From NCBI RefSeq assembly GCF_900166595.1, contig NZ_LT745763.1:820562-884561 (forward strand): a stretch of 64,000 nucleotides of DNA, given 5' to 3'. Positions within the stretch are counted from its first letter, which is position 1; each line of letters begins with the position of its first letter. This stretch comes from Virgibacillus dokdonensis (lineage in GTDB: Bacteria; Bacillota; Bacilli; Bacillales; Amphibacillaceae). The translations under genes and the position numbers were made by a program. Of the stretch, positions 44,669 to 64,000 are shown piece after piece. The notes below the pieces were generated by a model. That model saw only the letters and a list, made by a program, of their open reading frames with translations. It was not told the origin of the DNA and ran no database searches.

Positions 44669-44863
44669 ATGCCTGAACAAAAACTTACCATTGTCCCCGT
44701 TACATTACATTCCAAAAATGAAAATAGTACTGCATCCTATCTAGAGGATTCCTCTTCCTATTCAGCTTGCACAATCAAAATAGACAAAGTTGATATTTCC
44801 TTCCCTAACGGCGTAGATGAGCACATCATTCAAACCATTATGAGGGAGTTGAAAAACCTATGA
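44669..44863 (+). CDS. tnpA: IS66 accessory protein TnpA-like (short form)
   Basis: A 64-residue frame after an excellent AAAAGGAGGTGC ribosome site: MPEQKLTIVPVTLHSKNENS, ending KIDKVDISFPNGVDEHIIQT. Only the C-terminal motif of IS66 TnpA is evident; the HTH part is missing compared with usual ~100-residue proteins. Stop overlaps the tnpB start. Confidence 0.7.
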   Translation: MPEQKLTIVPVTLHSKNENSTASYLEDSSSYSACTIKIDKVDISFPNGVDEHIIQTIMRELKNL

Positions 44864-45213
44864 AATACGATTATACAAATGTCAAAAATATTTATATCAT
44901 CTGTGGTAAGACAGATATGAGAAAGGGTATTGATGGACTAGCGACATTGGTTCAGGATTTTTTTGGCCTTGACCCTTACGGAGATTCTATCTTCTTATTT
45001 TCCGGCTGGAGTAAGGACCGATATAAATGTTTATATTTTGATGGCAATGGCTTTGCCATGCTGTATAAACGTTTAGATAACGGAAAACTTCAATGGCCCA
45101 AAAACGAAAATGAGATGCGAAATCTATCGCAACAAGAACTTCGATGGTTACTCGAAGGTTTATCCATGCAGCAGCCAAAGGCGATTCAACAATCACCAAA
45201 AAGTTTGTTCTAA
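44860..45213 (+). CDS. tnpB: IS66 accessory protein TnpB
   Basis: A 117-residue protein: VKNIYIICGKTDMRKGIDGL, SKDRYKCLYFDGNGFAMLYK and LSQQELRWLLEGL, the IS66 Orf2/TnpB family. Intact. Required together with TnpC for transposition in family members. Confidence 0.92.
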   Translation: MKYDYTNVKNIYIICGKTDMRKGIDGLATLVQDFFGLDPYGDSIFLFSGWSKDRYKCLYFDGNGFAMLYKRLDNGKLQWPKNENEMRNLSQQELRWLLEGLSMQQPKAIQQSPKSLF

Positions 45214-45294
45214 AATTACTACAAATGCTTCACTCTTACGTTCAACATGGTATACTATAACTACCTTAAATTCGAACGGAAAGTGGTGAACTGG

Positions 45295-46870
45295 ATGGTT
45301 AATACTTCTTCTAATCATGAGAATCCATCCGATAAATTAATTCGGCTTCTTGAAGAACAATTGGATCTTTCTAATCAACAAAACAAAGAATTATCGGAAC
45401 AGGTTAAAGTGTTAACCGAGCAAGTTCGCCATTTAACAAAGCTTTTATATGGAGCTAAAACAGAGAAATCGAAATATAATGCGCCTGATGGGCAGACCTC
45501 CTTATTTGATGATGATTCAACTTTTACCGATTCTGAGCAGACAGAAGAACAAAGCCAACAGACGATTTCTTATACTGTTGTACGAAAGGTTCAAAAAAAA
45601 CGAAATGATTCATTACGTGCTGATGTCGAGGTAGAAGTGATCCACCATCATCCAAAAAATACAAACTGTACGTGTTGCAATCGTCAAATGGTTGAGATTG
45701 ACGGCACCATGGTGCGTGAAGAAGCAACCTTTATTCCTGCGAAAATGAGGAAAGTGCAACACGTAGAACATGCCTATGAATGTAAAAACTGTAAAGGTGA
45801 TGCATTCCAGCCAGCGCAAATTGAACGTGGCAAAGCACCGCAACCAGTCATTCAGCGAAGTATCGCTAGTCCCAGCGTTCTAGCCAAAGTCATCTATGAT
45901 AAATTCATGCAATACGTACCCCTTTACCGGCAAGTAAAAGAATGGGAACGTTACGGCCTGAATACAAATGATAAAAATCTTTCTAATTGGGTTATCCGAA
46001 CATCGCATGATTGGCTATTGCCTATTTATGATCATATGAAGCATAAGATGATGTCTAAATCGATTTTACATGTCGATGAAACGCATGGACGGACAAATCA
46101 TCAACAGATCCGATGGAAAATCCGGTCAATCCAACGCTTACAATTGGGTTTATCGAACAGTCCCTTGTCAAGGGCCAACCATCGTTTTGTTTCAAAGTGC
46201 ATTATCACGCGCACGATCTGTTCTTAAAAGCTTCATTGAAGATTATTCAGGGACCATTGTGTGCGATGGTTATTCTGCCTATGACAAAATCGAAGGGGTG
46301 ACCTTCGCAAATTGTTGGGCACATGTTCGCCGCTATTGGCTAAAAGCAGACAGTGAAAATGGGCGAATTGGTGTAACATATTGTGATGATTTATACCAAT
46401 TGGAGAGGCAGTTTAAGCACTTATCACCGAGTGAACGGAGAAAAAGACGGAACAAATTCTCAAGACCCATTGTAGATAAGTTTCTGGACTGGGTTTGATA
46501 AATCACCATTCTATGGGAAAAGCGCACTCGCCAAAGCTGCCGATTACACGCTAAACCGGATAAATGGACTAAAAGCATTTTTGAAAGATGGTCGTATTGA
46601 AATGGATAATAATCCAGCGGAAAACGCCATCCGTCCAAGTGTAATCGGGCGAAAAAATTGGCTTTTTTCCGTGAGTGAGGCTGGCGCCAAAGCCAATGCG
46701 ATCTGTTTATAAGTATCGCAGAAACGGCTAAGGTAAATGGTATAGATTTCTATCGCTATCTGGTGAAATTACTAACGGATTTGCCAAATTTACATATACA
46801 TAGAAATCCAGAGGTTTTAAATGAATATATGCCTTGGTCAAAAATGATTCAAGCCGAATGTAGTAAATAA
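45295..46870 (+). pseudogene. tnpC: IS66 transposase TnpC, frameshifted
   Basis: First part (45295 to about 46105) is in frame: coiled LLEEQLDLSNQQNKELSEQV, zinc-binding CTCCNRQM/CKNCKG and catalytic start HVDET. It then continues in another frame (GQSNAYNWVYRT .. TIVCDGYSAYDK .. NCWAHVRRYW) to about 46495, in a third frame (YGKSALAKAADYTLNRI .. GRIEMDNNPAENAIRPSVIG) to a stop near 46711, and in a fourth frame to 46870. At least three indels, so it is inactive. Confidence 0.9.
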
Positions 46871-46955
46871 CCGTAAATTTGATTTAAAAAATCAAGATTA
46901 TACGGTTATTTGTCATGCGTACCAACAAGGTGCGTATTTTTTATTTCGGGCTTAC

Positions 46956-48141
46956 TTAAATACAGTCAATACACGGATTTAGATGAGTTAGAAAAAGTGT
47001 TCTTTGAAGAATTAGTAGACATTGCCAAGATGAAAACTATAGATGATATTGATGGTTTCAATAAAAGTTTGGGAGCCACTGTAGACAATCATACTAATTA
47101 TCCAACTAGTAAACAGATAGAAGAATGGCAAGTTCTGTCTCCTACCAAATTTATTGGAGCTGGAAGTTACTATTTGAATAATCAAATTCACCAAAAGTAT
47201 CGTCAAGACATTGTGGAGAATTGGAAAAAATATATATGGACAAAGCACAGCCCTCAATCTGTTCAAAATATTATATACGGAGATAAAGTCATCTCTAATG
47301 TTAATGGTGAAAAGGAATACTGGGATGGTTTAACGGGGAAAGCATATATTGCAAATGGTGAAATTGGCATTATGGTTGATTACCCAGGCCACTATGGCAA
47401 AAACGATAGGAATTCTAGTTGGTACAAATTCCGTTTTGGCTCGTTTGAAGGTAAAGTATTCTCCTATACGAAAGCGGATTTTGGTGGTGATAATAGTGAC
47501 TCTAAGTTAGAACTTGCATATGCTCTTACGTTCACAAATCACAGGGATATAGCTTTGGAAAAACCATAGTAGTCATTAATGGTAAAAGTTCCTTTGTGAC
47601 GAAAGAACTTTTGTATACTGCATATTCTCGTCAAAAAGAAAAACTAATTATATTAAGTGACTTATCTATTCATGAATTGGTTCAGTATTCGAATGACTGG
47701 TATTTGGATACGAAACAACGATATACGGACTTATTTGAAGTTCCAAATATTATTGAAATAGAGTCGAATAAACAAAAACGGTACTTCGAAGAAAAATTGA
47801 TCCATAAAACGATTCGTGGAGAAATGGTACGATCAAAGTCCGAAGTAATTGTGGCCAATATACTCGATAAGTTGAAAATGGAGTATACCTATGAAGAAAG
47901 TTTAAATGTAAATGGTAAAACCTATATTCCTGATTTCACACTCCGCTACAAAGGGAAAACGGCTTATTTAGAGCATCTTGGAATGCTAGGGAAAAAATCA
48001 TATGAAAAGGATTGGGAGAAGAAAAAAGCAAATTATGAAAGTGTGGATATTTCAGAAGCGCTTGGAAATTTGATAATTACAGAGGATGGATTAGACGGAA
48101 GTTTGGATGCAACGTTAATAGAACGTAAGATTCAAACATAA
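46956..48141 (+). pseudogene. 3' remnant of a superfamily 1 helicase with C-terminal nuclease-like domain
   Basis: Coding sequence resumes exactly at the IS66 right end: YSQYTDLDELEKVFFEELVD, WQVLSPTKFIGAGSYYLNNQ, GDKVISNVNGE, AYIANGEIGIMVDYPGHYGK, then the UvrD-type motif ALT-VHKSQGYSFGKTIVVI and LYTAYSRQKEKL. A one-base frameshift near 47545 separates this motif. The tail RSKSEVIVANILDKL .. YIPDFTLRYKGKTAYLEHLG resembles a PD-(D/E)xK-like nuclease domain. The N-terminal helicase half is gone. Confidence 0.85.
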
Positions 48142-48397: not shown

Positions 48398-48437
48398 CTG
48401 ACCCAAATGTGCTAAAGCTTTAGCACATTTGAGTCAG
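48398..48437. terminator. Near-perfect 40-nt palindrome
   Basis: Arms CTGACCCAAATGTGCTAAAG and CTTTAGCACATTTGAGTCAG differ at one position and meet without a loop. No T tract follows. It could end transcription from upstream, be a protein site, or be a mobile palindromic element. Confidence 0.5.
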
Positions 48438-48582: not shown

Positions 48583-48829
48583 ATAAGGTTGTGTTAACGT
48601 TGATATGTGATTGTGTGGAGAAAATAGAATCTAGCACATATCAATGGATATATCATAGAAAAATGTACTTAATTATATTCGTATTTGTGATGTCGAACGT
48701 CTAGAATGTGGCAACGTTTATTATAGTCAGCCTTATGATAGTGGAAGCAAATCTAATGTTGTACGTCAATTAGGAGAGACAGAAGACAATTTAAAGGTGA
48801 AGTTTTTTGGAAAATTAGGAGGTCTAATA

Positions 48830-49963
48830 ATGGCAGTAAAAGAATCAAGTCTAAACACAATAATGGGAAGTAGTATGACTCCTAAACGTAAAATTTATGC
48901 AATTGATTTGTTCTCTGGGGCAGGTGGATTAACTCATGGACTTGAAAGAGTAGGTGTTGAAGTAAGATTAGGAATTGATATCGATCCTGCGTGTGAATTT
49001 CCATATACTCAAAATAATAAGGCAGAATTTCTTTTAAAGTCAGTCGAAGATCTAAAAGGTAGTGAAATTGCTTCTTATTATAGGAAGAATAGTATCAAAT
49101 TATTGGCAGGTTGTGCGCCATGTCAAACCTTCTCTACATATAATCAAAAAGCAACTCAAGATGATAAACGATGGTGGCTTCTAAAAGAGTTCTCAAGGAT
49201 TGTTAGAGAGGTTAATCCTGAATTGATAACTATGGAGAATGTATCAAATTTAGAAGGACAAAATGTATTTGAAGAATTTTTAGATGAACTAAAATCCCTA
49301 AATTACCATGTTAGTTTCGGGATTGTGAATTGTGCTGTTTATGGGGTACCTCAGCATCGTAATAGGTTAGTTTTACTAGCCTCTAAATTTGCTCCAATCA
49401 ATTTACTACCGCCAGAGGTATTTTCTAATGGAGTAAAAACTGTACGTGATGCTATTTATGAATTACCACCTATAAAAGCAGGAGAGATTTATAAGGATGA
49501 TCCGTTACACCAAAGCTCTGAATTAAATGAGCTCAACTTAAGACGGATTAAATCTTCAAGACCGGGTGGCACTTGGAGGGATTGGGATGAAGATTTAATA
49601 GCAGATTGTCATAAAAAAGATTCCGGAAAAACTTATCCTAGTGTATACGGTAGAATGTCTTGGGAGTCTCCGGCACCAACTATGACAACACAATTTTTTG
49701 GTTTTGGGAATGGGAGGTTTGGACATCCTGAACAAGATAGAGCGATTTCATTAAGAGAAGGAGCAATCTTTCAAAGCTTTCCAAGTGACTATGAATTTGT
49801 ACCAAAAGGAGAGCCGGTTATTAGAAAGTCCATTGGTAGACTAATTGGTAATGCAGTTCCAGTTAAACTAGGTGAAGTGATTGGATTAAGTTTCCATAAG
49901 CATGTAAGAGATAATATTAGAACTATACAGCATTATTTTAGAGGTGAGAAGATAAATGGCTAA
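48830..49963 (+). CDS. drmMII: DNA (cytosine-5-)-methyltransferase heading the DISARM operon
   Basis: A 377-residue C5-methyltransferase with all key motifs: I IDLFSGAGGLTHGLE, IV AGCAPCQTFS with catalytic Cys, VI TMENVSNL, VIII QHRNRLVLLAS, X IGNAVPVKLG. The target-recognition region is about residues 230-300. The start at 48830 follows TTAGGAGGTCTA at ideal distance; GTG 48797 has no site. It overlaps drmD by 8 nt. C5-methyltransferases mark self DNA in class 2 DISARM; here one stands before a class 1 gene set. The symbol is assigned by context. Confidence 0.88.
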   Translation: MAVKESSLNTIMGSSMTPKRKIYAIDLFSGAGGLTHGLERVGVEVRLGIDIDPACEFPYTQNNKAEFLLKSVEDLKGSEIASYYRKNSIKLLAGCAPCQTFSTYNQKATQDDKRWWLLKEFSRIVREVNPELITMENVSNLEGQNVFEEFLDELKSLNYHVSFGIVNCAVYGVPQHRNRLVLLASKFAPINLLPPEVFSNGVKTVRDAIYELPPIKAGEIYKDDPLHQSSELNELNLRRIKSSRPGGTWRDWDEDLIADCHKKDSGKTYPSVYGRMSWESPAPTMTTQFFGFGNGRFGHPEQDRAISLREGAIFQSFPSDYEFVPKGEPVIRKSIGRLIGNAVPVKLGEVIGLSFHKHVRDNIRTIQHYFRGEKING

Positions 49964-52900
49964 GGCTAATAAGGTAAGTGAAGAATTTTATATCCGTTCC
50001 GTACCAAAGCCAGGCCAACTTGTAGAAGTTAGAAGACGGCAATGGGTAGTTACACAGGTACAAGGGTCGTTGCTAGAACCTTCTAAAGAGCAACACCTTG
50101 TAACGTTAACTTCTATTGATGAGGATTCACATGATGAAGAATTACAAGTTATATGGCAACTAGAACCTGGTGCACAAATCATTGAAAAAGCAGGTCTTCC
50201 CAATATATCTGGATGGGATACTTCAGAACAGATAGAAGCATTTCTTGATGCAATTCGTTGGGGCGCATCAACAAATGCAGATAGATCTTTATTGCAATCT
50301 CCTTTCCGAAGTGGAATTACGATTGAAGATTATCAGCTGGATCCAGTAGTACGTGCTATAGATATGGCTCGAGTAAATTTATTAATAGCGGATGATGTTG
50401 GTCTTGGTAAAACAATTGAAGCGGGATTAGTAATTCAGGAACTTTTAGTTAGACATAGAGCCCGTACTGTTCTAGTGATTTGTCCCTCGTCACTTCAGTT
50501 GAAGTGGCAAACTGAGATGCAAGAAAAATTCGGTCTAGATTTTCGCATTGTCGATACGAATTATGTTAAACAACTTAGGAGAGAACGAGGAATACATGCA
50601 AATCCATGGACATCATTCCCTCGATTAATTACTTCTATGGATTGGATGAAAAATGGAGAAGGGCTTAGACAAATCAAAGAAATCTTACCACCGCATGTAA
50701 CCTATCCAAGGAAATTTGATATTTTGGTGTTGGATGAGGCACATAACGTTGCTCCTTCTGCAACATCTAACTATGCAATTGAAAGTCAGAGAACTAAGTT
50801 AATTCGTATGCTTTCCCCACATTTTAATCACCGTTTATTCTTGAGTGCTACCCCACATAATGGGTATCAAGAATCTTTCACTTCCTTACTTGAATTACTT
50901 GATGACCAACGATTTGCAAGGACCGTAATGCCTGATGACAAAAAACTGCAGCAAGTAATGGTTCGACGTTTAAAAAATGAGATTGTAGATGAGAAGGGGC
51001 TACCTGTTTTTCCAGTAAGGAAACTTAAAGCATTAGAAGTGGACTATTCAAAAAAGGAAATTGAAGTATATAGTTTATTACAAAACTATATTGAAATTAG
51101 AAATAGAAATTTAGACAACAATCAAGGAAATTACGGGGAAGATTTTATTCATATTTTATTAAAGAAAAGACTATTCTCTTCACCTATGGCATTTGCAGGT
51201 ACCCTTGCGAAATATCGTACTGGTATAGAAAGTGGACGGAAATCCAAGTTGGATAAAAGCAAATTGGGTAATCGTATACTACGTAATGCAATAATGCGTA
51301 TCAATGACGATTACTCAGATGATGAATTATTTGAAGAAGAGTTACATGATGCTTTAGATTTAGCTACTAATACCTCTACTCCACTTAGTAAGAAAGAACG
51401 TGAAATACTAGATAAGATTTCACAATGGGCAGAGGATGCAAAGGTTAAAATGGATTCGAAAGCGATTGCAATTATAGAGTGGTTAAAAAGTCATCTGAAA
51501 AATGGTGGGGAATGGAATAATAAAAGGGTTGTTTTGTTTACAGAGTATCGTGCAACACATACTTGGTTACATCAAATTTTAGCAAGTCATGGCTTTGGTG
51601 GTGACCGTTTAATGTTTTTACATGGAAGTATGTTACCAGAAGAGCGTGAGCAAGTAAAAGCAGCATTTCAAACAGATCCAAATGTTTCCCCCGTTCGTAT
51701 CTTGCTAGCAACTGATGCAGCATCAGAGGGAATAGATTTACAAAATCATTGTAATTATCTAATTCATGTTGAAATACCATGGAATCCCAATGTAATGGAG
51801 CAAAGGAATGGACGAATAGATAGGCACGGGCAAAAGGGAAAATGTGTATATATTTGGCACCCGGTTGGTAAAGGGTTTAATCAAGATAATACTACTCAAA
51901 ATGTAACAAAGGTTATGGGAGATCATGTATTTTTAATGCGTGCAGCTTTGAAGGTTGATCTAATTCGAGAGGATTTAGGAAGTGTTGGTTCAGTTATTGC
52001 ACATCAAATTGAGGAAGCCATGTTAGGTAATCGAAAAAAGTTAGATACCAGTCTTGCTGAAACAAAGGCTGAAAAGAGTCGTAGGTTGATCCGAGTTGAT
52101 AGGCAATTAAGGGAAAAGATCAGTAGGTTACATGATCGACTTTTGGATGCTAAGGATAGTTTTCGCCTAGCTCCAGAAAATATTTATAGAGCAGTAAAAG
52201 TAGCTTTGGAGTTAGCTGAGAAGCCTGGGTTAAAACCAATAAATTTCTTAGGAATACCTTTTGGAAAAGTATTTGAGGTTCCAATTTTGCCGGGGTCATG
52301 GGGACAAGCAACAGTGGGTCTTGAGCACCCTCACACTGGTAAACGCCGTCCGATAACCTTTGACCATGATATAGCCAAAGGGAGAGATGATGTTGTTCTT
52401 GTTCACTTAAATCACAAATTAGTTCAAATGAGTTTAAGGCTTTTAAGGGAAGAAATATGGAAATTGGACGATACAAAAAAATTAAATCGTATATCTGTAA
52501 GGGTTGTCCCAGATGACATGTTAGATGGTTGTGCACTTATTATCCAATCACGATTAATTGTAACCGGAGGTGACCATCATCGTATACATGAAGAGTTAAC
52601 ATTAGCAGGTGGCTTACTTAAAGATAGAGGATTCTCGAGAATACCCCAGGTTTCTAAGGTTGAATCTCTTATGGAGTCTTCGTTACCAGTTGAGCCTAAT
52701 CACGATGTATTTTCAGAACTAAAAAATCGGTTTTACATGAGTGAAGAAGCAATACTTGCTACAGTTGAAGCACGATCTCGAGATCGTCTTAAATATCTAG
52801 AAAATACAATAGATCGTCGAAGGGAAAGTGAGATAAAGGATATATCTACTTTATTGGATGATTTAAAAAACATTATTGAAAGAGAACTTAAGGATCAACA

Positions 52901-53123
52901 AACTGAACAGTTACAGTTGTTTGAATGGCCAGAGGATCAACAAAATCAACTTCGTCGAGACTTAAACGCTTTGCGAGATAGGTTATCAAGGTTACCAGCA
53001 GAAAAAAAATTAGAAATTGAAACTATTAATAGAAGATATTCTAATTTAACAGACAGAACATTTCCGGTAGCGGTTGTGTTTCTAATGCCTAAGTCTCAAT
53101 TGTCAGGAGGTGAAAACTATTGA
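49956..53123 (+). CDS. drmD: DISARM SNF2-like helicase DrmD
   Basis: A 1055-residue SNF2/RapA-type ATPase: Walker A ADDVGLGKTIEAGL (about residue 145), DEAH box LVLDEAHN (about 258), motif III FLSATPHNG, and C-terminal lobe VVLFTEYRATHTW .. LLATDAASEGIDLQ .. WNPNVMEQRNGRIDRHGQ (about 520-630). The last 400 residues are helical, with a coiled coil near 930-1010. DrmD with an adjacent large adenine methyltransferase defines class 1 DISARM. Overlaps the methyltransferase genes on both sides (8 and 4 nt). Confidence 0.92.
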   Translation: MAKANKVSEEFYIRSVPKPGQLVEVRRRQWVVTQVQGSLLEPSKEQHLVTLTSIDEDSHDEELQVIWQLEPGAQIIEKAGLPNISGWDTSEQIEAFLDAIRWGASTNADRSLLQSPFRSGITIEDYQLDPVVRAIDMARVNLLIADDVGLGKTIEAGLVIQELLVRHRARTVLVICPSSLQLKWQTEMQEKFGLDFRIVDTNYVKQLRRERGIHANPWTSFPRLITSMDWMKNGEGLRQIKEILPPHVTYPRKFDILVLDEAHNVAPSATSNYAIESQRTKLIRMLSPHFNHRLFLSATPHNGYQESFTSLLELLDDQRFARTVMPDDKKLQQVMVRRLKNEIVDEKGLPVFPVRKLKALEVDYSKKEIEVYSLLQNYIEIRNRNLDNNQGNYGEDFIHILLKKRLFSSPMAFAGTLAKYRTGIESGRKSKLDKSKLGNRILRNAIMRINDDYSDDELFEEELHDALDLATNTSTPLSKKEREILDKISQWAEDAKVKMDSKAIAIIEWLKSHLKNGGEWNNKRVVLFTEYRATHTWLHQILASHGFGGDRLMFLHGSMLPEEREQVKAAFQTDPNVSPVRILLATDAASEGIDLQNHCNYLIHVEIPWNPNVMEQRNGRIDRHGQKGKCVYIWHPVGKGFNQDNTTQNVTKVMGDHVFLMRAALKVDLIREDLGSVGSVIAHQIEEAMLGNRKKLDTSLAETKAEKSRRLIRVDRQLREKISRLHDRLLDAKDSFRLAPENIYRAVKVALELAEKPGLKPINFLGIPFGKVFEVPILPGSWGQATVGLEHPHTGKRRPITFDHDIAKGRDDVVLVHLNHKLVQMSLRLLREEIWKLDDTKKLNRISVRVVPDDMLDGCALIIQSRLIVTGGDHHRIHEELTLAGGLLKDRGFSRIPQVSKVESLMESSLPVEPNHDVFSELKNRFYMSEEAILATVEARSRDRLKYLENTIDRRRESEIKDISTLLDDLKNIIERELKDQQTEQLQLFEWPEDQQNQLRRDLNALRDRLSRLPAEKKLEIETINRRYSNLTDRTFPVAVVFLMPKSQLSGGENY

Positions 53124-56100
53124 ATAATATTTCCAGTCATTATGAATGGCTTTCCTTGATAGAGATATCAGGATCTTTTCTATCTATTCCAGTGTTAGAA
53201 AGGGCTTTCCCTCAAGGATTAGATGTTGTTAATTCGTCTATGCGTAAGAACGTTCGTTCAGCTTACGAAGAGTGGCTAGATGCCAAAGATAATGAAGATC
53301 CTGACTTCAATGAACTACACAAAGAGTGGATAAGACTTGTACTAACTGAGGTTCTCGATTACGATGATGAGGTTTTGTATCTAAACAATAAAGCTGCTTA
53401 TATTGTAGAGGGCCAAAATGGATTATCTAGTTTTTCACCAGAATTTATAATTAGAAATAATGAAAACGAGAAACCTCGTTTATTTATATCAATACAAGAC
53501 CCTCAAACTGATTTATTTTCAAAAGAAAATAAGGATGGTTGGCCAGTATCAGCTTTGGATCGTATGACTATGTTGTTTAAAAATACAGGTGTAAACCTCG
53601 GATTACTAACTAATGGTGAGCAATGGATGTTAGTTCATAAATCAATAGATGGTGTCTATGGACATGCAACATGGTACTCTCGTTTATGGTTCCAAGAACC
53701 AATTACTCTTAGGGCATTTCAGTCTTTATTAGGTGTTCGTCGAAGTTTTGGCCCTAAAGAAGACAATATTGAGTCATTATTAGCTGAGTCATTAGAGTAT
53801 CAAGATGATGTTACTGAGACTTTAGGTGAGCAGGTTCGTCGGGCAGTTGAGGTACTCGTTCAGTCATTAGATAGAGCTGATGAAGACAGAAATCGAGAGT
53901 TGTTAGAAGGTGTCCCACCTGAAGAACTTTATGAAGCGGGACTAACTGTAATGATGCGACTTGTTTTTTTACTTTGTGCAGAAGAACGAGGACTGCTATT
54001 GTTGGGAGACCCAGTCTACGATCAATTTTATTCGATTACGCATTTACGTGGTCAATTGTCAGAGGATTCAAATCAATATGGTCCTGAAGTTTTAGAAAGA
54101 CGTCATGATGCATGGTCTAGGTTATTAACTTTATTTCGTGCAGTTTATGGAGGGGTTGAACATGAGTCTCTACGACTTCCGGCATTAGGTGGAACTTTAT
54201 TTGATCCAGACCGTTACCCATTTCTAGAAGGAAGATCAAAAGATACAAGTTGGATTGAAGATATTTCAAACCCGTTACCTATTGATAATCGAGCAGTATT
54301 ACTGTTATTAGACTCATTGCAGGTACTTGAGCAACGGGGAGGTGCAGTCTTTCTTTCATATAAAGGACTAGACGTTGAACAAATTGGACATGTTTATGAG
54401 GGTTTACTCGAATACTCAGTTGTCCGTGTGCCTGAGGTAACAATAGGTTTAATAGGCTCTCAAAAAGCCCAAAACCCGAGTATTTCATTATCTGAACTAG
54501 AATTAACTAGAGCTAAAAATGAGGACCTTATGATAGACAAAATTCAGAAGGTAACTGAGAGATCTGAGTCAGCAATTCGAAATGCACTCTCCTCTTCAGG
54601 AAACGAAAATGAGTTTTCGGATATTTTAAGAGTTTGTGGAGGAAATATTGAATTAGCAAAACGGATAGCGCCTTTTGGTAAAATGCTAAGAAAAGATGCA
54701 TGGGGTTCTCCAATTGTATATCAAGAAAAAGCGTTTATAGTAACGTTGGGAACAGGTCGAAGAAAAACCGGAACACATTATACACCAAAAGTTCTTACTG
54801 AAAAAATTGTAAAGAACACATTAGAACCTTTAGTTTTTAATGGAATAAAAGATGGTAAGCAAGAAAAGGAATGGGAACTCAAGTCATCTGAGGAATTACT
54901 TAATTTAAAATTATGTGATGCAGCTATGGGTTCCGGAGCTTTTTTGGTTCAAGCATGTCGTTGGCTTTCAGAAAAAGTAGTTGAGGCTTGGGCTATTGAA
55001 GAATCGAATGGTAATGTTATTACAGTTAACGGGCAAGTTATGAATAATACTTCTAATGAACTTTTGCCAAAACAGGCTGACGATAGATTGCTTATTGCTA
55101 GAAGACTTGTAGCAGAGCGTTGTCTTTACGGAGTAGATTTAAATCCGGTAGCAGTGGAATTAGCTAAGCTCTCGATTTGGTTAATAACATTGGCAAAAAA
55201 TCGACCATTTGGATTTCTTGATCATAATCTTCGTTATGGGGATTCACTAATTGGCATTAGCCACATAAATCAAATAAATAATTTAGATATGGATATGGTT
55301 GAGGCTTCAAGCCAAACGCGCTTATTTGGTCAGAACATAGAAAAATCGGTCTTAGATGCATTGAAACTTCGAGGCGACATAAGAACAATAGCGATACGCG
55401 ATATTAAAGATATAGAGTATGTACAGAGCCTAAACAAAAGGGCTAAAAATAGACTGGAATCAATACATTTGATTGCCGATGCCCTTGTTGCTGAACATCT
55501 ACAGTATAGTGGAAATAAAACTAAACTTGGACCGGTGCTTAATACACTGGCACAAATTGCAGGAGAATTTTTAAGTGGAAGTACTGACTTGGGTGATAGT
55601 ATAAGGAGACGAGCAACCAAAATATTTAATTCCTGTTTTATAGATAAAGGTATCAAAAGAAAAACATTTCACTGGCCATTAGAATTCCCAGAGGTGTTTT
55701 CTACTGAAAATAGTGGATTTGATGCTATTATTGGCAACCCTCCGTTTCTTTGGGGAAATAGAATTAGTTCAAATCTTGGAGAGAAATACAGAGATTGGTT
55801 ATTAAACTTGCATCGTGATACACACGGAAATGCTGATCTTAGTGCTCATTTTTTTAGAAAAACTTACGATCTACTTAAAGATGGTGGAAGTTTTGGATTG
55901 ATTGCGACTAATTCGATAAGTCAGACGGATAATAGAGTATCAGCATTAGTTCCTATTATAAATGATGGAGGTATAATTTATTGGGCTCTTCCAGATATGG
56001 AATGGCCAGGGAAAGCTGCCATTTATATATCTGTTGTTGCTATTCATAAAGGTCCTTATGATGGTAGGATACAACTGAATGAAAAAGAAGTTGAAGGAAT

Positions 56101-57148
56101 TTCCAGTTATTTAAATGAAGATCAATTCAAACCGGATCCATTTCGCTTATCTTTTCATAAGAAAAAAAGCTTTAAAGGGGTAGATACTGGTGGACTAGGT
56201 TTTGTTCTTACTGATTCTGAAATAGATGAAATTAAGCATTTTGAACCAAGTTCTATGGAAAAAATATGGCCGATGATTAATGGAGATGATTTATTAAGAG
56301 ACCCTCAACAGAAACCAGCTCGTTTGATAATCAACTTTTCAGGAATGCTAGAAGAAGAAGCGAGACAACACCCAATTTTAATGAGGATAGTTGAAGATAG
56401 GGTGTTACCGTACCGTAAAGAAGTAAAAGATAAAGCGAGTCGTGAAAAGTGGTGGCTATATAATAGACCACGACCAGCTCTCTATAGTTCAATTTCTGAG
56501 CTTGATAAAGTTTTAGTGAATTGTGTTGTTTCTAAACATATTTGTTTTAGTTTTATGCCTAAAAGAGTTGTTTTTACAAATGCTATTAATGTTTTTGCTT
56601 TAAACGAATTTGAGGATTTTGGTCTCTTGCAAAGCACGATCCATGAATCTTGGGCTCGTTATTATGCATCATCACTAAAAACAGATAATCGCTATAATCC
56701 AACTGATTGCTTTGAAACATTTCCATTTCCTAAATGTACGAAAAGGTTAGGGGAAGTAGGGAAACAGTATTATGATTTTCGCCAATCAATTATGAAGAAT
56801 ATGGAAATAGGATTGACAGAAACTTATAATATGTTTCATAACCAAGATGTGACTGATAAAGAAATTGTTGAGTTACGGCAAATGCATGCAAATTTAGACG
56901 ATAAAGTTATTTCTGCTTATGGTTGGGATGACATTAGTCTTAATCATGGTTTTTATGAAACAAAGAATGGAATAAGATACACTATAAGTGATGCTGCACG
57001 AACAGATATACTTAATCGTCTTCTTGAACTTAACCATAAACTTTATTTAGAAGAAACTAATAAATCATCAGGTAAGAAAAAGGGGAAAACTAAAAAGAAA
57101 CTTAGCCAAATGCAAGAAAAATTATCTGGTCAGATGGAACTTTTTTAA
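53120..57148 (+). CDS. drmMI: DISARM N6-adenine DNA methyltransferase DrmMI
   Basis: A 1342-residue type IIG/Eco57I-like protein. The N-terminal ~200 residues contain an alpha/beta domain (RLFISIQDPQTDLF .. VNLGLLTNGEQWMLV). The methyltransferase core has motif I LCDAAMGSGAFLVQACRWL (about residue 600), YGVDLNPVAVELAKLSIWL, and motif IV GNPPFLWG (about 872). A C-terminal specificity-like region ends in a Lys-rich tail. The start is TTG with CAGGAGGTG upstream, coupled to the drmD stop. Expected to methylate adenine in host DNA for self-recognition. Confidence 0.92.
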   Translation: MNNISSHYEWLSLIEISGSFLSIPVLERAFPQGLDVVNSSMRKNVRSAYEEWLDAKDNEDPDFNELHKEWIRLVLTEVLDYDDEVLYLNNKAAYIVEGQNGLSSFSPEFIIRNNENEKPRLFISIQDPQTDLFSKENKDGWPVSALDRMTMLFKNTGVNLGLLTNGEQWMLVHKSIDGVYGHATWYSRLWFQEPITLRAFQSLLGVRRSFGPKEDNIESLLAESLEYQDDVTETLGEQVRRAVEVLVQSLDRADEDRNRELLEGVPPEELYEAGLTVMMRLVFLLCAEERGLLLLGDPVYDQFYSITHLRGQLSEDSNQYGPEVLERRHDAWSRLLTLFRAVYGGVEHESLRLPALGGTLFDPDRYPFLEGRSKDTSWIEDISNPLPIDNRAVLLLLDSLQVLEQRGGAVFLSYKGLDVEQIGHVYEGLLEYSVVRVPEVTIGLIGSQKAQNPSISLSELELTRAKNEDLMIDKIQKVTERSESAIRNALSSSGNENEFSDILRVCGGNIELAKRIAPFGKMLRKDAWGSPIVYQEKAFIVTLGTGRRKTGTHYTPKVLTEKIVKNTLEPLVFNGIKDGKQEKEWELKSSEELLNLKLCDAAMGSGAFLVQACRWLSEKVVEAWAIEESNGNVITVNGQVMNNTSNELLPKQADDRLLIARRLVAERCLYGVDLNPVAVELAKLSIWLITLAKNRPFGFLDHNLRYGDSLIGISHINQINNLDMDMVEASSQTRLFGQNIEKSVLDALKLRGDIRTIAIRDIKDIEYVQSLNKRAKNRLESIHLIADALVAEHLQYSGNKTKLGPVLNTLAQIAGEFLSGSTDLGDSIRRRATKIFNSCFIDKGIKRKTFHWPLEFPEVFSTENSGFDAIIGNPPFLWGNRISSNLGEKYRDWLLNLHRDTHGNADLSAHFFRKTYDLLKDGGSFGLIATNSISQTDNRVSALVPIINDGGIIYWALPDMEWPGKAAIYISVVAIHKGPYDGRIQLNEKEVEGISSYLNEDQFKPDPFRLSFHKKKSFKGVDTGGLGFVLTDSEIDEIKHFEPSSMEKIWPMINGDDLLRDPQQKPARLIINFSGMLEEEARQHPILMRIVEDRVLPYRKEVKDKASREKWWLYNRPRPALYSSISELDKVLVNCVVSKHICFSFMPKRVVFTNAINVFALNEFEDFGLLQSTIHESWARYYASSLKTDNRYNPTDCFETFPFPKCTKRLGEVGKQYYDFRQSIMKNMEIGLTETYNMFHNQDVTDKEIVELRQMHANLDDKVISAYGWDDISLNHGFYETKNGIRYTISDAARTDILNRLLELNHKLYLEETNKSSGKKKGKTKKKLSQMQEKLSGQMELF

Positions 57149-57235
57149 TATAATAATTGCTAGGCAACTATAAAAATTCTATTGCAATTCATCTAATTTA
57201 GTATATGAAAATAGTCTTAGGATGGAGGGGTAAAT

Positions 57236-60200
57236 TTGAGTGAGGAAAGTAGGAAACGCTTTGCCTTAGAAATAAGGGATCCTGAGAAACCAGAAGGAAA
57301 AAATGCCTGGTTAGTAAGGGTTGAAAATAAAGAACAAGTGCTTAATTTTTCCTTAATCTTAGATATTCCAGGATCTGAGTGTAAAGGAGTTCATGAAGGT
57401 GATCCTTTTTTAATCTTTTGTGAAATGAATAAAAGTCCGGTTCTTATCGCTTTTGCGAGACTATATCGTAAACGCTCCACCTTAACCCAAACAACCTTTT
57501 ATTTTGATGGTTATTTACCTGTTGAAAATCACAATACACTTGATCTGAAAATTACTAGTAGTGTCCAATCACCAATTAAACGTATTGATTGGGAATTTTT
57601 TGAAGAGAAATTTAACGGAATTAATGGTTTTGACTTTTCTTCTTTTCCAATTTTAACTGGGGAATTTTCAAATGAGCAAGCGTATGTTCGTAGTTTGCTT
57701 GAAAATGCAGTTATAGATGATTTACTTGGTCCGGCCGATGGTCCTTTTGAAGAGATTATTGGTATGAGTGTTAGAGATCGTTACCTTGTTGGAAGACTTG
57801 CTCCAAAAGAAACCATAAAGGAAGAATTTGATGATCCAGTGTTAGCTAAAACAAACGTAAATTCTTCTGGAGCTAGTGGAAGAACAGATGATGAGGAAAA
57901 CACTGGTGGAACGGACACTTCCACGAACCAATCTCTCGTACCTTCTTCTGTTGGAATTACTTTTTGTGTAGATGGTTCAGTAAAAAAGTTGGAAATCCTA
58001 GCTAGTTGGGGACGATATATACGAGGGAAAAGTGATAAAGAGGATAAGAACGGAAAACCATTCCGTGCTTGGAAAAGAGTGCCTTCAGGTGGTAAAAAAG
58101 AAATAGTATTAACTGAAGGTAAAATCACCCCTTTTTCTATTGATGGTGAATGCCCTGAAGTCCTTATTCAAGGAACAGTATATCCACGACTTGAAAATGG
58201 AGATAGACTAGTTACTCTTTTTCTAGTCAACACTCAATTAAAACCAGAGCAAAACCAAGATACAGCATGGGTTTTCCAGCCAGAACTAGTATTAAGAGAC
58301 CCTGAGGGGAAGGATATTTTTAGACGTAGACCTATGCTTAAAAATGATGAGGAATCAGATATAGAGCGTAAATCACTTGAGATGGTATATAGAAACCAAG
58401 TTGAATTTGCAGTAGGTCATGGTATATCAGTTCATGCTAAAACTACTAAAGATAATAGTAGTCACTCAACAGAAGTTCGAACGAGCGTATTACCAAGTTA
58501 TGAAATTCCTGTAACTGAGACACCAGGTTCAGAGCCAGAAGATCGTCCAACCATGCAACAAATGGTTGAAAAAGGTTTTCTTGATATGGATAATTTAGCA
58601 TCTATGGAACAAGATGAACTTTGTGATGCATTGTCAGTATTAACAAACGATTATCAAGACTGGATACAAGAACAACGGGAGAGAATCGGGAATTCAATTA
58701 AAGGTTTTGATAATGTTGCACATAATGCTATGGATAGATGTGAGGAAATATTAAGAAGACTTCGTGAAGGAATAACGGTACTTGGTACTGATGTTGATGC
58801 CTTAGCTTCATTTAGGTTTGCTAATAAAGCAATGGCTTATCAACGAATTCGGAGTATATACTCATTAAAACGAAGACGTGGAGTAAAAGTAGACTATGAA
58901 AGCCTTGATATACGTAAAAATCGATCTTGGCGACCTTTTCAGTTAGCCTTTATGCTCCTATCAATACCATCACTAACAGATCCGGCACATAAGGATAGAA
59001 CTGATAAAATCGAAGCATATGCTGATTTATTATGGTTTCCGACTGGTGGAGGGAAAACGGAAGCCTATCTAGGAGTAGCTGCTTTTACAATGGCAATTCG
59101 AAGACGGCAAGGGAAACTAGGAGGGTTAGATGCTAGTCGTGGGTTATCTGTTGTTATGAGATATACATTGAGGCTATTGACTCTGCAACAATTTCAACGA
59201 GCCACTACTCTCCTCTGCTCAATGGAAATTCTAAGGAAAAATAATACTAAAGAGTGGGGGAACAATCCTTTTACAATAGGTTTATGGGTTGGGAAAAAAG
59301 TCACTCCTAATACTACTGAACAAAGTCATGAAGCAATTGAAAGTGAACGAGATGGGAAACGTGGGAGTGGCTCTACTCCAGCACAGCTTACGAGCTGTCC
59401 ATGGTGTGGTAGTGAAATATCACCAGGTCGTGATATACAAATAGATAAAGTTATGGGTAAGACATTTATTTTTTGTGGAGATAAATATGGTCGTTGTGAG
59501 TTTAGTCGAGCAAAATCAAGAGAACAAGGACTGCCAGTTCTTGTTGTTGATGAAGAAATTTATCGCAATCCTCCTTCAATGCTAATTGCAACTGTTGATA
59601 AATTTGCATTAATGGCCTGGCGTGGTGAAATTAAGACTCTGTTTGGATATGTTACACATGAATGCCCGAGACATGGATTGATATGGTCGGATTCAGATTG
59701 TTCAGGACAACATCCCAAAAAAGGGAAGTACCCAGTTACTAATGCACAGCAAGTAGAACGTCTACGACCACCTGATCTAATTATTCAAGATGAGTTTCAT
59801 TTAATAAGTGGACCTCTAGGAACTATGGTAGGCTTATATGAAACCGCAGTTGATTCTCTTTCAACATGGAGTTACAAAGGGAAAGATGTTAAGCCCAAAG
59901 TAATTGCTTCCACCGCAACAGTTAAAAAGGCAGAAGAACAGGTTACGAATGTTTTTTTACGTCATGTGTCAATTTTTCCTCCTCAAGGACTTGATATTGA
60001 AGACAATTTCTTTTCAGTTCAGAGGTCCAAAGAACAAAAGCCAGGTCGTCGATATGTTGGTATTTGTTCACCGGGAAGTTCACGGCCTGCTGTATTAATA
60101 CGAGTATATGTAGCATTACTTACTGCAGCTCAATCATTATATAATCATTTCGGCCAGGTAGCAGATCCTTATATGACCCTTGTAGGATATTTTAATTCTT

Positions 60201-61171
60201 TACGTGAGTTAGGAGGTATGCGCCGATTAGCAGAAGATGATGTTCAAACACGTTCATATAGAGTTCAAATGAGTGAGATAGATAGACCTGGTTTAAGTCA
60301 ACGTAAAGTTCAAAATATAGATGAACTCACTTCTAGAACATCAAGTAGGGAAATACCAAAAATCCTTGATAAATTAGAGCTTAATTTTAAACCGAAATGG
60401 GGTCAAGGAGAACCACAAGCAATTGATATTGCTCTAGCAACTAACATGCTTTCGGTAGGGGTAGATGTTAACCGTTTAGGGTTGATGGTTGTAAATGGAC
60501 AACCGAAAGGTACTGCAGAATATATTCAATCCACAAGTCGTGTAGGGCGTTCTTCTCCAGGATTAGTATTTTCTGTTTTGACTTGGTCTAGACCAAGAGA
60601 CATTTCACATTATGAAACTTTCGAACACTACCATTCAAGTTTTTATAAACATGTAGAAGCACAGTCAGTTACACCATTTGCACCAAGAGCACTAGATAGG
60701 GGGCTGACTGGAACAATAGTGAGTCACATAAGACTTAAAAATGATGGTTTAAACCCTAATGTTGGGGCACAGAACTTAGACGATACATCTAATACAGTAG
60801 CTGAAATTGTAAGACAAGTAGTTACAAATAGAGCTTGGAATATTAAGAATGATAGGTCAATCGCAGAGAAAGTTGAAGAAATGATAAAAGTTCGAATTGA
60901 TTCGTGGGTTAAAGAATCAATTAAACCAGGGAGAAAACTTGGGTATGAAGCAGAACGGAAAAAAGGAGACCTTGCTCCATTATTACAAAAACCGGGTATA
61001 GTATCTTGGGATAAATTTACTGTACCAATGTCAATGCGAGAAGTTGAGCCAGGTGTTCAATTGATCATGGATGTAGACAAACTTCCAGATGCACCAGAGT
61101 GGCAATTAAGGAAAAAGAAAGAGCAGGAAAGAAATAATGACGAGACGGGTGATTTAAATGAGTACACATAA
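57236..61171 (+). CDS. drmA: DISARM helicase DrmA
   Basis: A 1311-residue protein. N-terminal ~550 residues lack motifs I can name; then a superfamily 2 helicase: Walker A FPTGGGKTEAYL (about 603), DExH-type IIQDEFHLISGPLG (about 850), motif III IASTATV, and LATNMLSVGVDVNRLGLMVV with IQSTSRVGRSSPGLVF (about 1070-1105). A zinc-type pair CPWCGSE .. CGDKYGRCEF lies near 725-760. Start is TTG after GGATGGAGGGG. An 87-bp gap separates it from drmMI, the only real gap in the operon. Forms the DNA-loading DrmAB complex in characterised systems. Confidence 0.93.
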   Translation: MSEESRKRFALEIRDPEKPEGKNAWLVRVENKEQVLNFSLILDIPGSECKGVHEGDPFLIFCEMNKSPVLIAFARLYRKRSTLTQTTFYFDGYLPVENHNTLDLKITSSVQSPIKRIDWEFFEEKFNGINGFDFSSFPILTGEFSNEQAYVRSLLENAVIDDLLGPADGPFEEIIGMSVRDRYLVGRLAPKETIKEEFDDPVLAKTNVNSSGASGRTDDEENTGGTDTSTNQSLVPSSVGITFCVDGSVKKLEILASWGRYIRGKSDKEDKNGKPFRAWKRVPSGGKKEIVLTEGKITPFSIDGECPEVLIQGTVYPRLENGDRLVTLFLVNTQLKPEQNQDTAWVFQPELVLRDPEGKDIFRRRPMLKNDEESDIERKSLEMVYRNQVEFAVGHGISVHAKTTKDNSSHSTEVRTSVLPSYEIPVTETPGSEPEDRPTMQQMVEKGFLDMDNLASMEQDELCDALSVLTNDYQDWIQEQRERIGNSIKGFDNVAHNAMDRCEEILRRLREGITVLGTDVDALASFRFANKAMAYQRIRSIYSLKRRRGVKVDYESLDIRKNRSWRPFQLAFMLLSIPSLTDPAHKDRTDKIEAYADLLWFPTGGGKTEAYLGVAAFTMAIRRRQGKLGGLDASRGLSVVMRYTLRLLTLQQFQRATTLLCSMEILRKNNTKEWGNNPFTIGLWVGKKVTPNTTEQSHEAIESERDGKRGSGSTPAQLTSCPWCGSEISPGRDIQIDKVMGKTFIFCGDKYGRCEFSRAKSREQGLPVLVVDEEIYRNPPSMLIATVDKFALMAWRGEIKTLFGYVTHECPRHGLIWSDSDCSGQHPKKGKYPVTNAQQVERLRPPDLIIQDEFHLISGPLGTMVGLYETAVDSLSTWSYKGKDVKPKVIASTATVKKAEEQVTNVFLRHVSIFPPQGLDIEDNFFSVQRSKEQKPGRRYVGICSPGSSRPAVLIRVYVALLTAAQSLYNHFGQVADPYMTLVGYFNSLRELGGMRRLAEDDVQTRSYRVQMSEIDRPGLSQRKVQNIDELTSRTSSREIPKILDKLELNFKPKWGQGEPQAIDIALATNMLSVGVDVNRLGLMVVNGQPKGTAEYIQSTSRVGRSSPGLVFSVLTWSRPRDISHYETFEHYHSSFYKHVEAQSVTPFAPRALDRGLTGTIVSHIRLKNDGLNPNVGAQNLDDTSNTVAEIVRQVVTNRAWNIKNDRSIAEKVEEMIKVRIDSWVKESIKPGRKLGYEAERKKGDLAPLLQKPGIVSWDKFTVPMSMREVEPGVQLIMDVDKLPDAPEWQLRKKKEQERNNDETGDLNEYT

Positions 61172-62993
61172 AGTCGGTGATGTCCGTCCTACACAGCTAC
61201 TTTGGACTTATGGACCAGGTGCACTTATAGACCTTCCGAACCTTTCTGTTATTACTATGGGATTAGAGCGGTGGGATGAAGAACAATGTTCACCTATAGA
61301 GGAAGCTAGGTTGTTAGCTGCTGTGAGGAAAAGACTTGGTCCACAAGTTGAAAGGCTTCGAGTTGCTCCTTTTTTAAGAGATGAGAATGCTAGTCCTTTA
61401 TCAGCAGAAGGAAAGATTGGAGTACCCGTTCGACCATTTCCTAGATGGCTTAGATGCGTTCGGTGTGGTTTATTGGCCGAATATGATTCAGGATTATTTA
61501 ATGTTAAGGCAAATGCCTTCCGCCCTGAAAAGACACATTTTGTTCACGAAAATTGTGAAAAGGGAGCTAAATCAGAGGCAGTACCTGCTCGCTTTTTACT
61601 AGCTTGTAAAAATGGCCACATAGATGATTTTCCCTGGCATTGGTTTGTGCACGGAGGACAAGATGACTGTAGAGGTACTTTACGTTTTTTTGAAAGTGGT
61701 GCTTCTTTACAAACACAAAATCTTTGGGTTAAGTGTGATTCTTGTAATAAAAGTAAATCACTTGTACATGCTTTTGGTAAAGATGGACAAGATAATTTAC
61801 CAGCCTGTCGTGGGCGACATCCACACTTGGATAGTTATGATTCTTCATGTGACCAAGACCCTAGAGCTGTTTTATTGGGAGCTACGAACAGTTGGTTTCC
61901 GATTACAATTTCCGCGTTAGCAATTCCTATGGAAAAAAATCCACTGATTCAACTAATAATGGATGGATGGCATTACTTTGAAGATATTGATTCAGAATTG
62001 GAGGTTAAGCTGACTATCAAAGCATTATCCAAGAGTGGAGCACTACCTGGAATAGGACAGTATAATGAAAAAGACGTGTGGAAAGCAATTCAAGATAAAA
62101 GAGAAGGAGCTTCACAGGAGGAGATTGTTAGTGAAGTAGATATAAAAATACCCGAGTGGGAAGTTCTTACTTCATCTTCTCCACCTAGAGACTGGCCACA
62201 TTTCCTTAGTAGAACAGTAGAACCTCCAGCTAATTTTGAATCTGAAATTGATAATGTACTACTTCTTGAGCGGCTAAGGGAAGTAAATGCTTTAATAGGC
62301 TATACAAGGGTAGAGGCAATTGAAGAGTTTATGGATGATGAAGAACGACCTACAATGGCAAAACTCACCAAAAGGAGTACTAAATGGGTTCCAGCTAGTG
62401 AGGTTCATGGTGAAGGAATATTTATTCAATTTAAGGAAGAGGAAATTAAAAAATGGGAAAGAATCTCTGCAGTTAAGGAACGAAATAAAATGCTTGAGAA
62501 CGGGCATCATGGTTGGCGAAATGCACGTAAATTGGATCCAAGTGAAGGGTATCCAGGAATAAGGTTTACTATGTTACACACATTTGCACATTTATTAATT
62601 CGCGAGTTAGCTTTAGAATGTGGGTATAATGAAGCAAGTATTCGAGAACGGATATATGCTAATGATGAAGCATCAATGGCCGGAGTTTTACTTTATACTG
62701 CGGCAGCTGATTCTGATGGTACACTCGGTGGTCTGGTAGAGCTGGGTAATCCTCAAAATCTAGGTAGGTTAATTGAACAGGCACTTTCAAGAGCTGCTAT
62801 CTGTTCTTCAGATCCTATGTGCTCAGAACACGATCCTAGTGAGGATAGGTCACTTCATGCTGCATCTTGTCATGCGTGTTCTTTCGTTGCGGAAACATCG
62901 TGTGAAAGAGGAAATCGCTATTTGGATAGGGCCCTCTTAGTAAATACATTAGAAAACAAAGATACGGCATTTTTTTCACGGGACTTATGTTAG
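61158..62993 (+). CDS. drmB: DISARM protein DrmB (DUF1998)
   Basis: A 611-residue protein with DUF1998: HTFAHLLIRELALECGYNEA near residue 475, and Cys clusters typical of the family (CVRCGLLAEYDSG near 100, CDSCNKSK near 195, and C-terminal SSDPMCSEH .. SCHACSFVAETSCERGNRYL near 555-590). DrmB partners DrmA and is needed for DISARM protection. It overlaps drmA by 14 nt and adjoins drmC directly. Confidence 0.93.
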   Translation: MSTHKVGDVRPTQLLWTYGPGALIDLPNLSVITMGLERWDEEQCSPIEEARLLAAVRKRLGPQVERLRVAPFLRDENASPLSAEGKIGVPVRPFPRWLRCVRCGLLAEYDSGLFNVKANAFRPEKTHFVHENCEKGAKSEAVPARFLLACKNGHIDDFPWHWFVHGGQDDCRGTLRFFESGASLQTQNLWVKCDSCNKSKSLVHAFGKDGQDNLPACRGRHPHLDSYDSSCDQDPRAVLLGATNSWFPITISALAIPMEKNPLIQLIMDGWHYFEDIDSELEVKLTIKALSKSGALPGIGQYNEKDVWKAIQDKREGASQEEIVSEVDIKIPEWEVLTSSSPPRDWPHFLSRTVEPPANFESEIDNVLLLERLREVNALIGYTRVEAIEEFMDDEERPTMAKLTKRSTKWVPASEVHGEGIFIQFKEEEIKKWERISAVKERNKMLENGHHGWRNARKLDPSEGYPGIRFTMLHTFAHLLIRELALECGYNEASIRERIYANDEASMAGVLLYTAAADSDGTLGGLVELGNPQNLGRLIEQALSRAAICSSDPMCSEHDPSEDRSLHAASCHACSFVAETSCERGNRYLDRALLVNTLENKDTAFFSRDLC

Positions 62994-63770
62994 ATGAAAA
63001 ATCTTTGGGAAGTTATTGCTAATATATGGATTGAATTGCACCCAGATAGAATTGAATATATGGCGAAGAAAATCATGAAAATTAATACTGCTCAAGATCT
63101 AATAAGTACATCATTCAAACAAGGATTGAATGTTAAAAATGAGTTGCTTCTTAAGTTAAAGAATGCTTGGGAAGATGAACCTAAGATATCGCCAAATGAA
63201 ATAGCAGCTGCTTTAAGAACAGCAAGTATAACCTCATATAATTCAATAAAGCGTCAGGGGTTAATTGAATTAGTATGGTCTGGACCTTCTACTGACTTAG
63301 TATCCATAAGACATACAGAACAAGTTCTTAAAGAAGTAATAGATTCAGCACGAAAACGCCTTTTTATAGTAAGCTTTGTTGCTTATGAATTGCCTTCTAT
63401 AGTTAGCTCGTTAAATAATGCAATAAGTAGAAAGGTGAAAATAGATATACTTTTAGAAGTTTCACATGAACAAGGTGGAAGAGTAAACAATGATTCCATT
63501 AAAGTTATGAAGGAAATAATTCCCTCTCTAAATATATACGTGTGGGATCAATATGAGAATAAACCAACTGATCAATTCTTAGGGGCAGTACACCCAAAGT
63601 GTGCAGTTTCTGATGGAGAAGTTGCTTTTATTATTAGTGCGAATTTAACCAAAGCTGCTATGGAACAGAATATGGAATTGGGTGTACTTATTAAAGATGG
63701 AAAAGTTCCCGAAAAACTAGACCTGCATTTAGATGCGCTAATAACGATTGGTATCATTAAAAAAGTATGA
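62994..63770 (+). CDS. drmC: DISARM phospholipase D-type protein DrmC
   Basis: A 258-residue PLD-superfamily protein with one HKD-type motif near residue 199: AVHPKCAVSDGEVAFIISAN, followed by NMELGVLIKDG. A single motif implies that a dimer forms the active site. In B. paralicheniformis DISARM drmC was dispensable for most phages. ATG follows the drmB stop codon without a gap. Last gene of the operon, ended by the terminator at 63789. Confidence 0.92.
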   Translation: MKNLWEVIANIWIELHPDRIEYMAKKIMKINTAQDLISTSFKQGLNVKNELLLKLKNAWEDEPKISPNEIAAALRTASITSYNSIKRQGLIELVWSGPSTDLVSIRHTEQVLKEVIDSARKRLFIVSFVAYELPSIVSSLNNAISRKVKIDILLEVSHEQGGRVNNDSIKVMKEIIPSLNIYVWDQYENKPTDQFLGAVHPKCAVSDGEVAFIISANLTKAAMEQNMELGVLIKDGKVPEKLDLHLDALITIGIIKKV

Positions 63771-63788
63771 GTGATTAAACGTTAGAGA

Positions 63789-63831
63789 AGAGTAATGTAA
63801 ACCTGAAATTGCGGTTACTTTACTCTTTTTT
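63789..63831 (+). terminator. Terminator of the DISARM operon
   Basis: AGAGTAATGTAAACC pairs with GGTTACTTTACTCTT (small bulges), followed by T6. The group II intron begins 3 nt after the T tract. Confidence 0.85.
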
Positions 63832-63833
63832 AG

Positions 63834-64000
63834 GTGCGCCCTGCATGGGCGAAAACTTGGTGGTGAAAGTCCACTACAGGCATGGCAGTAGGAACTGTTA
63901 GCGAAAGACAAGGTGGCTATCGCGAGGTAGTGGCTGAAGGAAGTCGGACGCAAACTCCTGAACTGACGAACAGAAACTAGATAGAAGGCTGAATTAGGTC
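63834..64000 (+). mobile_element. Group II intron, class C type (5' part; runs off window)
   Basis: Starts GTGCGCCCTGCATGGGCG and continues with GGTGGTGAAAGTCC, GGCAGTAGGAACTGTTAGCG, GAAGGAAGTCGGACGCAAAC and GACGAACAGAAACTAGATAG. These are the domain I blocks of bacterial class C introns and closely follow the Oceanobacillus iheyensis intron as I remember it. Insertion directly behind a Rho-independent terminator is the habit of class C introns. The reverse transcriptase gene would lie beyond the window. Confidence 0.85.

Follow-up and report, generated by a model that had tools for sequence, protein, structure and literature searches.

In a 64,000-nt stretch of the Virgibacillus dokdonensis genome (contig NZ_LT745763.1, positions 820,562 to 884,561; the window), six consecutive, apparently intact forward-strand genes at 48830-63770 form an operon of the defence island system associated with restriction-modification (DISARM). 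Matches to PADLOC, Pfam and NCBIfam models identify them as a C5 cytosine DNA methyltransferase (C5-MTase, or C5), drmD, drmMI, drmA, drmB and drmC, the order put forward in an original prediction made from the sequence alone (Table 1). The C5-MTase matches PF00145 and scores 303 bits with the PADLOC DrmMII model PDLC02651, next to 290.5 bits with a general type II methyltransferase model. Its reading frame opens at 48797, and we place its start at the ATG at 48830 because AGGAGGT precedes that codon; the database gene call for the contig (P0001, 377 aa) begins at the same position. By DNA search the gene is single copy in the 4.6-Mb genome.

Table 1. Genes of the DISARM operon, followed by the insertion-sequence features on either side
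Feature	Position	Strand	Details
C5 cytosine DNA methyltransferase, DrmMII-type, class 1 lineage	48830..49963	+	377 aa; PCQ and ENV catalytic motifs present
drmD, SNF2-like helicase	49956..53123	+	1055 aa; NF038317 1368 bits, cut-off 610
drmMI, MmeI/IIG-like N6-adenine methyltransferase with target recognition domain	53120..57148	+	1342 aa; PADLOC 1701 bits
drmA, DISARM helicase	57236..61171	+	1311 aa; NF038325 1446 bits, cut-off 950
drmB, MZB-domain protein (DrmB family)	61158..62993	+	611 aa; NF038324 752 bits, cut-off 240; CxxC pairs
drmC, phospholipase D-like nuclease	62994..63770	+	258 aa; NF038319 218 bits, cut-off 133
Left-flank IS66 element: orf2-like gene and apparently broken transposase	44860..46498	+	boundary, outside the DISARM system
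Right-flank IS66 sequence, start of fragment	63738..63998	-	overlaps drmC 3' end

The genes are tightly packed. The 8-nt overlap between the C5 stop and the drmD start (49956-49963), already claimed in the prediction, is confirmed; drmD and drmMI overlap by 4 nt, drmA and drmB by 14 nt, drmB and drmC are directly adjacent, and drmA follows drmMI after 87 nt. The start codon of drmMI is TTG, preceded by AGGAGGTG. A pattern search recovered PCQ, ENV and GNAV in the C5-MTase, NPPF in DrmMI, GLGKT and DEAH in DrmD, GGGKT and DEFH in DrmA, and HPK in DrmC, all of which presumably carry their customary functional meaning. PADLOC model PDLC02572, labelled DrmA, gives 1477 bits on DrmD and is probably mislabelled in PADLOC-DB 2.0.0.

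Ofir and colleagues reportedly defined class 1 in 2018 by drmD with drmMI, and class 2 by drmE with drmMII. The type I description in the PADLOC paper lists drmA, B, C, D and MI and prohibits drmE; in that passage drmMII is not mentioned as prohibited. The window holds drmA, drmB, drmC, drmD and drmMI together, and two DrmE models (NF038316, PDLC02636) gave zero matches in its genome, in keeping with the predicted presence of drmD and lack of drmE. By this gene content the operon belongs to class 1 and falls outside class 2. It is a real, apparently complete class 1 DISARM, its content, order and relatedness being read directly from the genes.

Linkage of the C5 gene to one DrmD branch

A one-genome-per-species scan with the window DrmD as query yielded 38 loci, 37 of them testable for C5, the contig of L030 ending inside drmD. 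In 35/37, across at least ten phyla, drmD is preceded on its own strand by a C5-MTase of the window family, a rate that holds for the window DrmD branch and not for class 1 overall because the loci were chosen by similarity to that DrmD. The two genes overlap or lie <=60 nt apart in 31 of the 35 (exceptions L020, L021, L023 and L031), with drmD starts taken as the longest open reading frame (ORF), which overcalls some overlaps. Two loci are without the usual C5: L036 has zero C5 genes in the 5.8 kb upstream of drmD, and the sole C5 of L017 is a distant one (77 bits) at 2.7 kb. The closest named relative, the DISARM of Geomicrobium sp. JCM 19039 (L003), has a C5 89% and a DrmD 91-92% identical to those of the window, the same order from C5 to drmB as far as fetched, and the 8-nt C5/drmD overlap too; unlike the window, its drmMI and drmA lie in several ORF pieces (L003:13161-21154), through decay or draft errors.

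Sampling beyond this branch was smaller. A DrmA search on plasmids matched 75 records, of which 60 were listed and 9 of these fetched, giving seven loci with drmD and drmMI (L081-L086, L088). Left out of the seven were L087 (broken drmD), L089 (no drmD found) and L050 (the top-hit record, fetched earlier via its C5). C5 lies inside the operon in one of the seven, from Microvirga (L081), and the C5 found downstream in L085 is unrelated (153 bits). Seven other genomes of the genus gave zero DrmD matches at E <= 1e-100. A DrmD model search of 398 genomes of the phylum matched 64, the window's own included: the window scored 1456 bits, two genomes about 650 and one 429, and the remainder, at 286-367 bits and mostly over the helicase core, are probably other SNF2 helicases. 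In the 20 kb fetched, the three better phylum matches (L090-L092) showed no C5, drmA or drmB; with DrmMI matches of 329-344 bits, they served as distant rows in the DrmD tree.

That tree, a quick one of 49 rows with long-branch warnings mostly outside the C5-bearing group, places the window in a branch of 39 rows with a Shimodaira-Hasegawa-like approximate likelihood ratio test (SH-aLRT) support of 100. Of these rows, 37 carry C5; the other two are L017, which lacks the usual C5, and the truncated locus L030. None of the ten rows outside the branch has a C5 of the window family. With L030 left out, two state changes explain C5 presence on the tree. Across 34 loci, pairwise distances of C5 are correlated with those of DrmD (rho 0.62; 0/2000 permutations as high), the value rising to 0.84 over 29 loci (0/2000 permutations reached the value) when five outlying rows, chosen only after tree inspection, are removed. 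Among the loci sampled, having the C5 gene goes with membership of one DrmD branch. The prediction was thus right to treat the C5 gene as a linked part of the unit, and wrong to regard the arrangement as new: it is the rule in the window's DrmD branch and so, for that branch, already common among class 1 loci, the situation in which the prediction itself would have dropped its claim of novelty.

Lineage and possible replacement of the C5 gene

The C5 tree holds 64 rows (37 class 1, 5 class 2, 22 other), its comparators partly picked by similarity to the window C5; its bootstrap is not fully settled, and several rows of the class 2 and other sets are long-branched. One clade (97/98) gathers 29 of the 37 class 1 rows, the window included, from ten labelled phyla and partly from metagenome-assembled genomes; every row in it is a DISARM locus among those sampled. 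L010, L024 and L037 fall immediately outside it and share a fork (94/95) with two rows not labelled DISARM (L043, L120), and the C5s of L013, L020, L021, L023 and L081 are placed among C5 enzymes of plasmid modules. Class 1 C5s are not one clade overall, with 6 label changes on the tree and a single change in 0/200 bootstrap trees.

The prediction had also raised a hybrid between the classes, in which the C5 gene would be a DrmMII acquired from a class 2 operon. The best PADLOC label of the window C5 is indeed DrmMII, and class 2 DISARM has drmA/drmB relatives and a C5 enzyme in common with the window; it differs in having drmE and in its C5 enzymes, which are distant in the five loci compared. 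DrmE searches gave two marginal matches with PDLC02636 and matches in 7 genomes, five above cut-off, with NF038316. The class 2 comparators are five C5 genes near drmE from the phylum sample, all of one phylum; four are on the drmE strand, and the fifth (L108), adjacent to drmB on the opposite strand, is truncated where the fetched sequence stops. They score 104-272 bits on a C5 profile built partly from class 1 rows, versus 508-622 for class 1, and fall outside all class 1 rows at two places on the tree, so that the window C5 does not group with them and, by these five, is not of class 2 lineage. The correlated C5 and DrmD distances likewise argue for a long residence of C5 in class 1. We consider a hybrid origin highly improbable and rejected it on the C5 tree placement.

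The relatives of the C5 bear on a second alternative, in which the gene lies next to DISARM by chance or as an orphan Dcm or restriction-modification (R-M) gene. Among the closest non-DISARM C5 relatives examined (about 48-53% identity) are plasmid modules pairing C5 with HEPN_MAE_28990/DUF262 or with an ATP-binding protein, which are without DISARM genes and have a nuclease-like or ATP-binding partner instead. For a 59% identical C5 from a Methylobacterium plasmid, profiles recovered no DISARM gene within 14 kb. These cases favour an independent gene; the shared strand, the 8-nt overlap, the recurrence upstream of drmD across phyla and the 29-row clade made up of DISARM loci speak against it. 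We judge chance proximity a most unlikely account and rejected it on the linkage of C5 to drmD. The window operon is a further member of a known, widespread C5-bearing class 1 subgroup.

Some loci of this subgroup carry extra genes at the C5/drmD junction. C5 is separated from drmD in L020 by a HEPN_MAE_28990 protein together with a borderline GmrSD_N fragment (33.3 bits, cut-off 33.2), in L023 by a HATPase protein on the opposite strand, and in L021 and L081 by a Vsr repair endonuclease gene. Next to the unrelated C5 of L017 lie a weak Vsr-like ORF (25.7 bits, short of the 27-bit cut-off) and, encoded on the opposite strand, HEPN and GmrSD_N proteins. The plasmid C5 relatives outside DISARM have HEPN/DUF262, an ATP-binding protein or a Vsr gene nearby; in L013, whose C5 is outlying, the short stretch inspected holds no partner of this kind. 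This pattern, based on few loci picked for unusual C5 or spacing, fits exchange of the C5 gene in some loci, at times by module capture. A Deinococcus sp. AJ005 plasmid (L050:1-9134) carries an MmeI-type gene, drmA, drmB and drmC, followed by an oppositely oriented Vsr gene and a C5 that stands apart from them.

Proposed self-marking and sensing of unmarked DNA

The window DrmA matches the DrmA of Serratia sp. SCBI (7s9v, 7s9w) with 1582 bits over nearly its whole length. The Serratia protein gives 1892 and 1770 bits with C5-bearing L023 and L081, versus 1102 and 860 with C5-less L082 and L083. By these five DrmA scores, rather than a tree, the solved Serratia system seems to sit with the C5-bearing branch. 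We take that system to be class 1. The title of a cited preprint, 'Class I DISARM ...' (Aparicio-Maldonado et al. 2021), fits this assignment, as do the DrmA scores. In the passages available from Bravo et al. 2022 (PMC9142583), the Serratia operon has, like the window, both a 5-cytosine and an N6-adenine methyltransferase, so that the pair is not the departure from known DISARM that had been predicted. The same passages describe a DrmAB ATPase strongly stimulated by unmethylated DNA and lowered by DNA containing 5-methylcytosine (m5C). The Serratia host belongs to a different phylum, and the likeness of its operon to that of the window lies in the methyltransferase pair and DrmA.

By analogy with the Serratia work, we infer the marking and sensing steps in the window operon. 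DrmMI (predicted N6-methyladenine, m6A) and the C5-MTase (predicted m5C) would mark the host's own DNA; incoming unmarked DNA bearing 5' overhangs would activate the DrmA-DrmB helicase complex, which methylation would restrain; and DrmD and DrmC would act as accessory helicase and accessory nuclease. Self-labelling with two marks, m6A and m5C, as had been proposed from the sequence, is plausible. We think it very probable that the operon is a complete class 1 DISARM of the C5-bearing branch in which DrmMI and C5 mark self and DrmAB senses unmarked DNA.

The m5C writer may instead be mainly an R-M-like or maintenance gene that the operon carries, outside DISARM self-recognition. Such a role would suit the loci of the branch in which C5 adjoins HEPN/GmrSD-like or HATPase genes. 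In most of the branch C5 and drmD overlap or are at most 60 nt apart, which leaves no space for a partner gene on that side of C5, the side surveyed, and the drop in DrmAB ATPase when the DNA is methylated (Bravo et al. 2022, PMC9142583, in the passages available) also counts against mere carriage. We regard this alternative as unlikely.

Several observations weigh against self-marking by DrmMI and C5 as a general account. Selecting loci by likeness to the window DrmD favours its branch. The nearest neighbour by C5 is not that by DrmD in 17/34 loci, some of them near ties. Six of the seven plasmid class 1 operons have no family C5 in the 1.3-4.4 kb covered upstream of drmD; C5-less class 1 operons exist, and therefore m5C is not needed by all class 1. 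One review, in the part available, gives DISARM either an adenine or a cytosine methylase (PMC10273834). According to a passage of another (PMC10286901), DISARM still blocks phage grown with DrmMII methylation, and methylation is therefore not the sole self signal. From the literature passages available, a methylome study of Cutibacterium acnes carrying a DISARM-like locus yielded no more than an unclear motif (PMC7365801), PMC9716671, PMC12375680, PMC7205518, PMC10952713 and PMC6098607 held nothing decisive, and no description of C5 presence by DrmD branch was found.

A further proposal, which we hold only tentatively and think rather doubtful, is that one class 1 branch needs an m5C writer together with DrmMI, and that a lost C5 slot is refilled from elsewhere, sometimes with a HEPN/GmrSD-like/HATPase module or Vsr. 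The two marks would then be jointly required for self-tolerance. For the window operon, too, both marks may be needed.

Operon surroundings and place among class 1 systems

IS66 sequences in opposite orientation stand on either side of the operon. On the left, Pfam IS66 matches are limited to ORFs 44860-45213 and 45247-46227; on the right, from the 3' end of drmC, there is a fragment and then, further on in the genome, an apparently intact copy (L093:800-3555). At 46910-48141, two adjoining ORFs match only C-terminal parts of the PADLOC candidate PDC-S68 (profile positions 821-1012 and 1035-1216 of 1221), and are probably a decayed remnant of another defence gene. A perfect 26-nt palindrome at 48405-48430, seen by eye about 400 nt upstream of the C5 gene, is possibly an operator or terminator. 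Searches for the operon-flanking DNA in the genus gave, outside the window's own genome, nothing but weak fragments, among which no empty site could be made out.

C5-less class 1 systems of Planktothrix, Nocardia, Nostoc and Sphingomonas plasmids share drmD, a drmMI-like methyltransferase, drmA and drmB with the window; they are without a family C5 as far as fetched and lie on other DrmD tree branches. On a Sphingomonas parapaucimobilis plasmid (L088:1906-23135), a drmD-methyltransferase-drmA-drmB operon separates cas3 from the remainder of a type I-E CRISPR-Cas locus.

For the window operon, these comparisons correct a likely overclaim, a class 1 operon with two methyltransferases being standard in its branch. 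Since C5 presence tracks one DrmD branch, the role of the second mark can be tested by comparing C5-bearing with C5-less class 1 systems.

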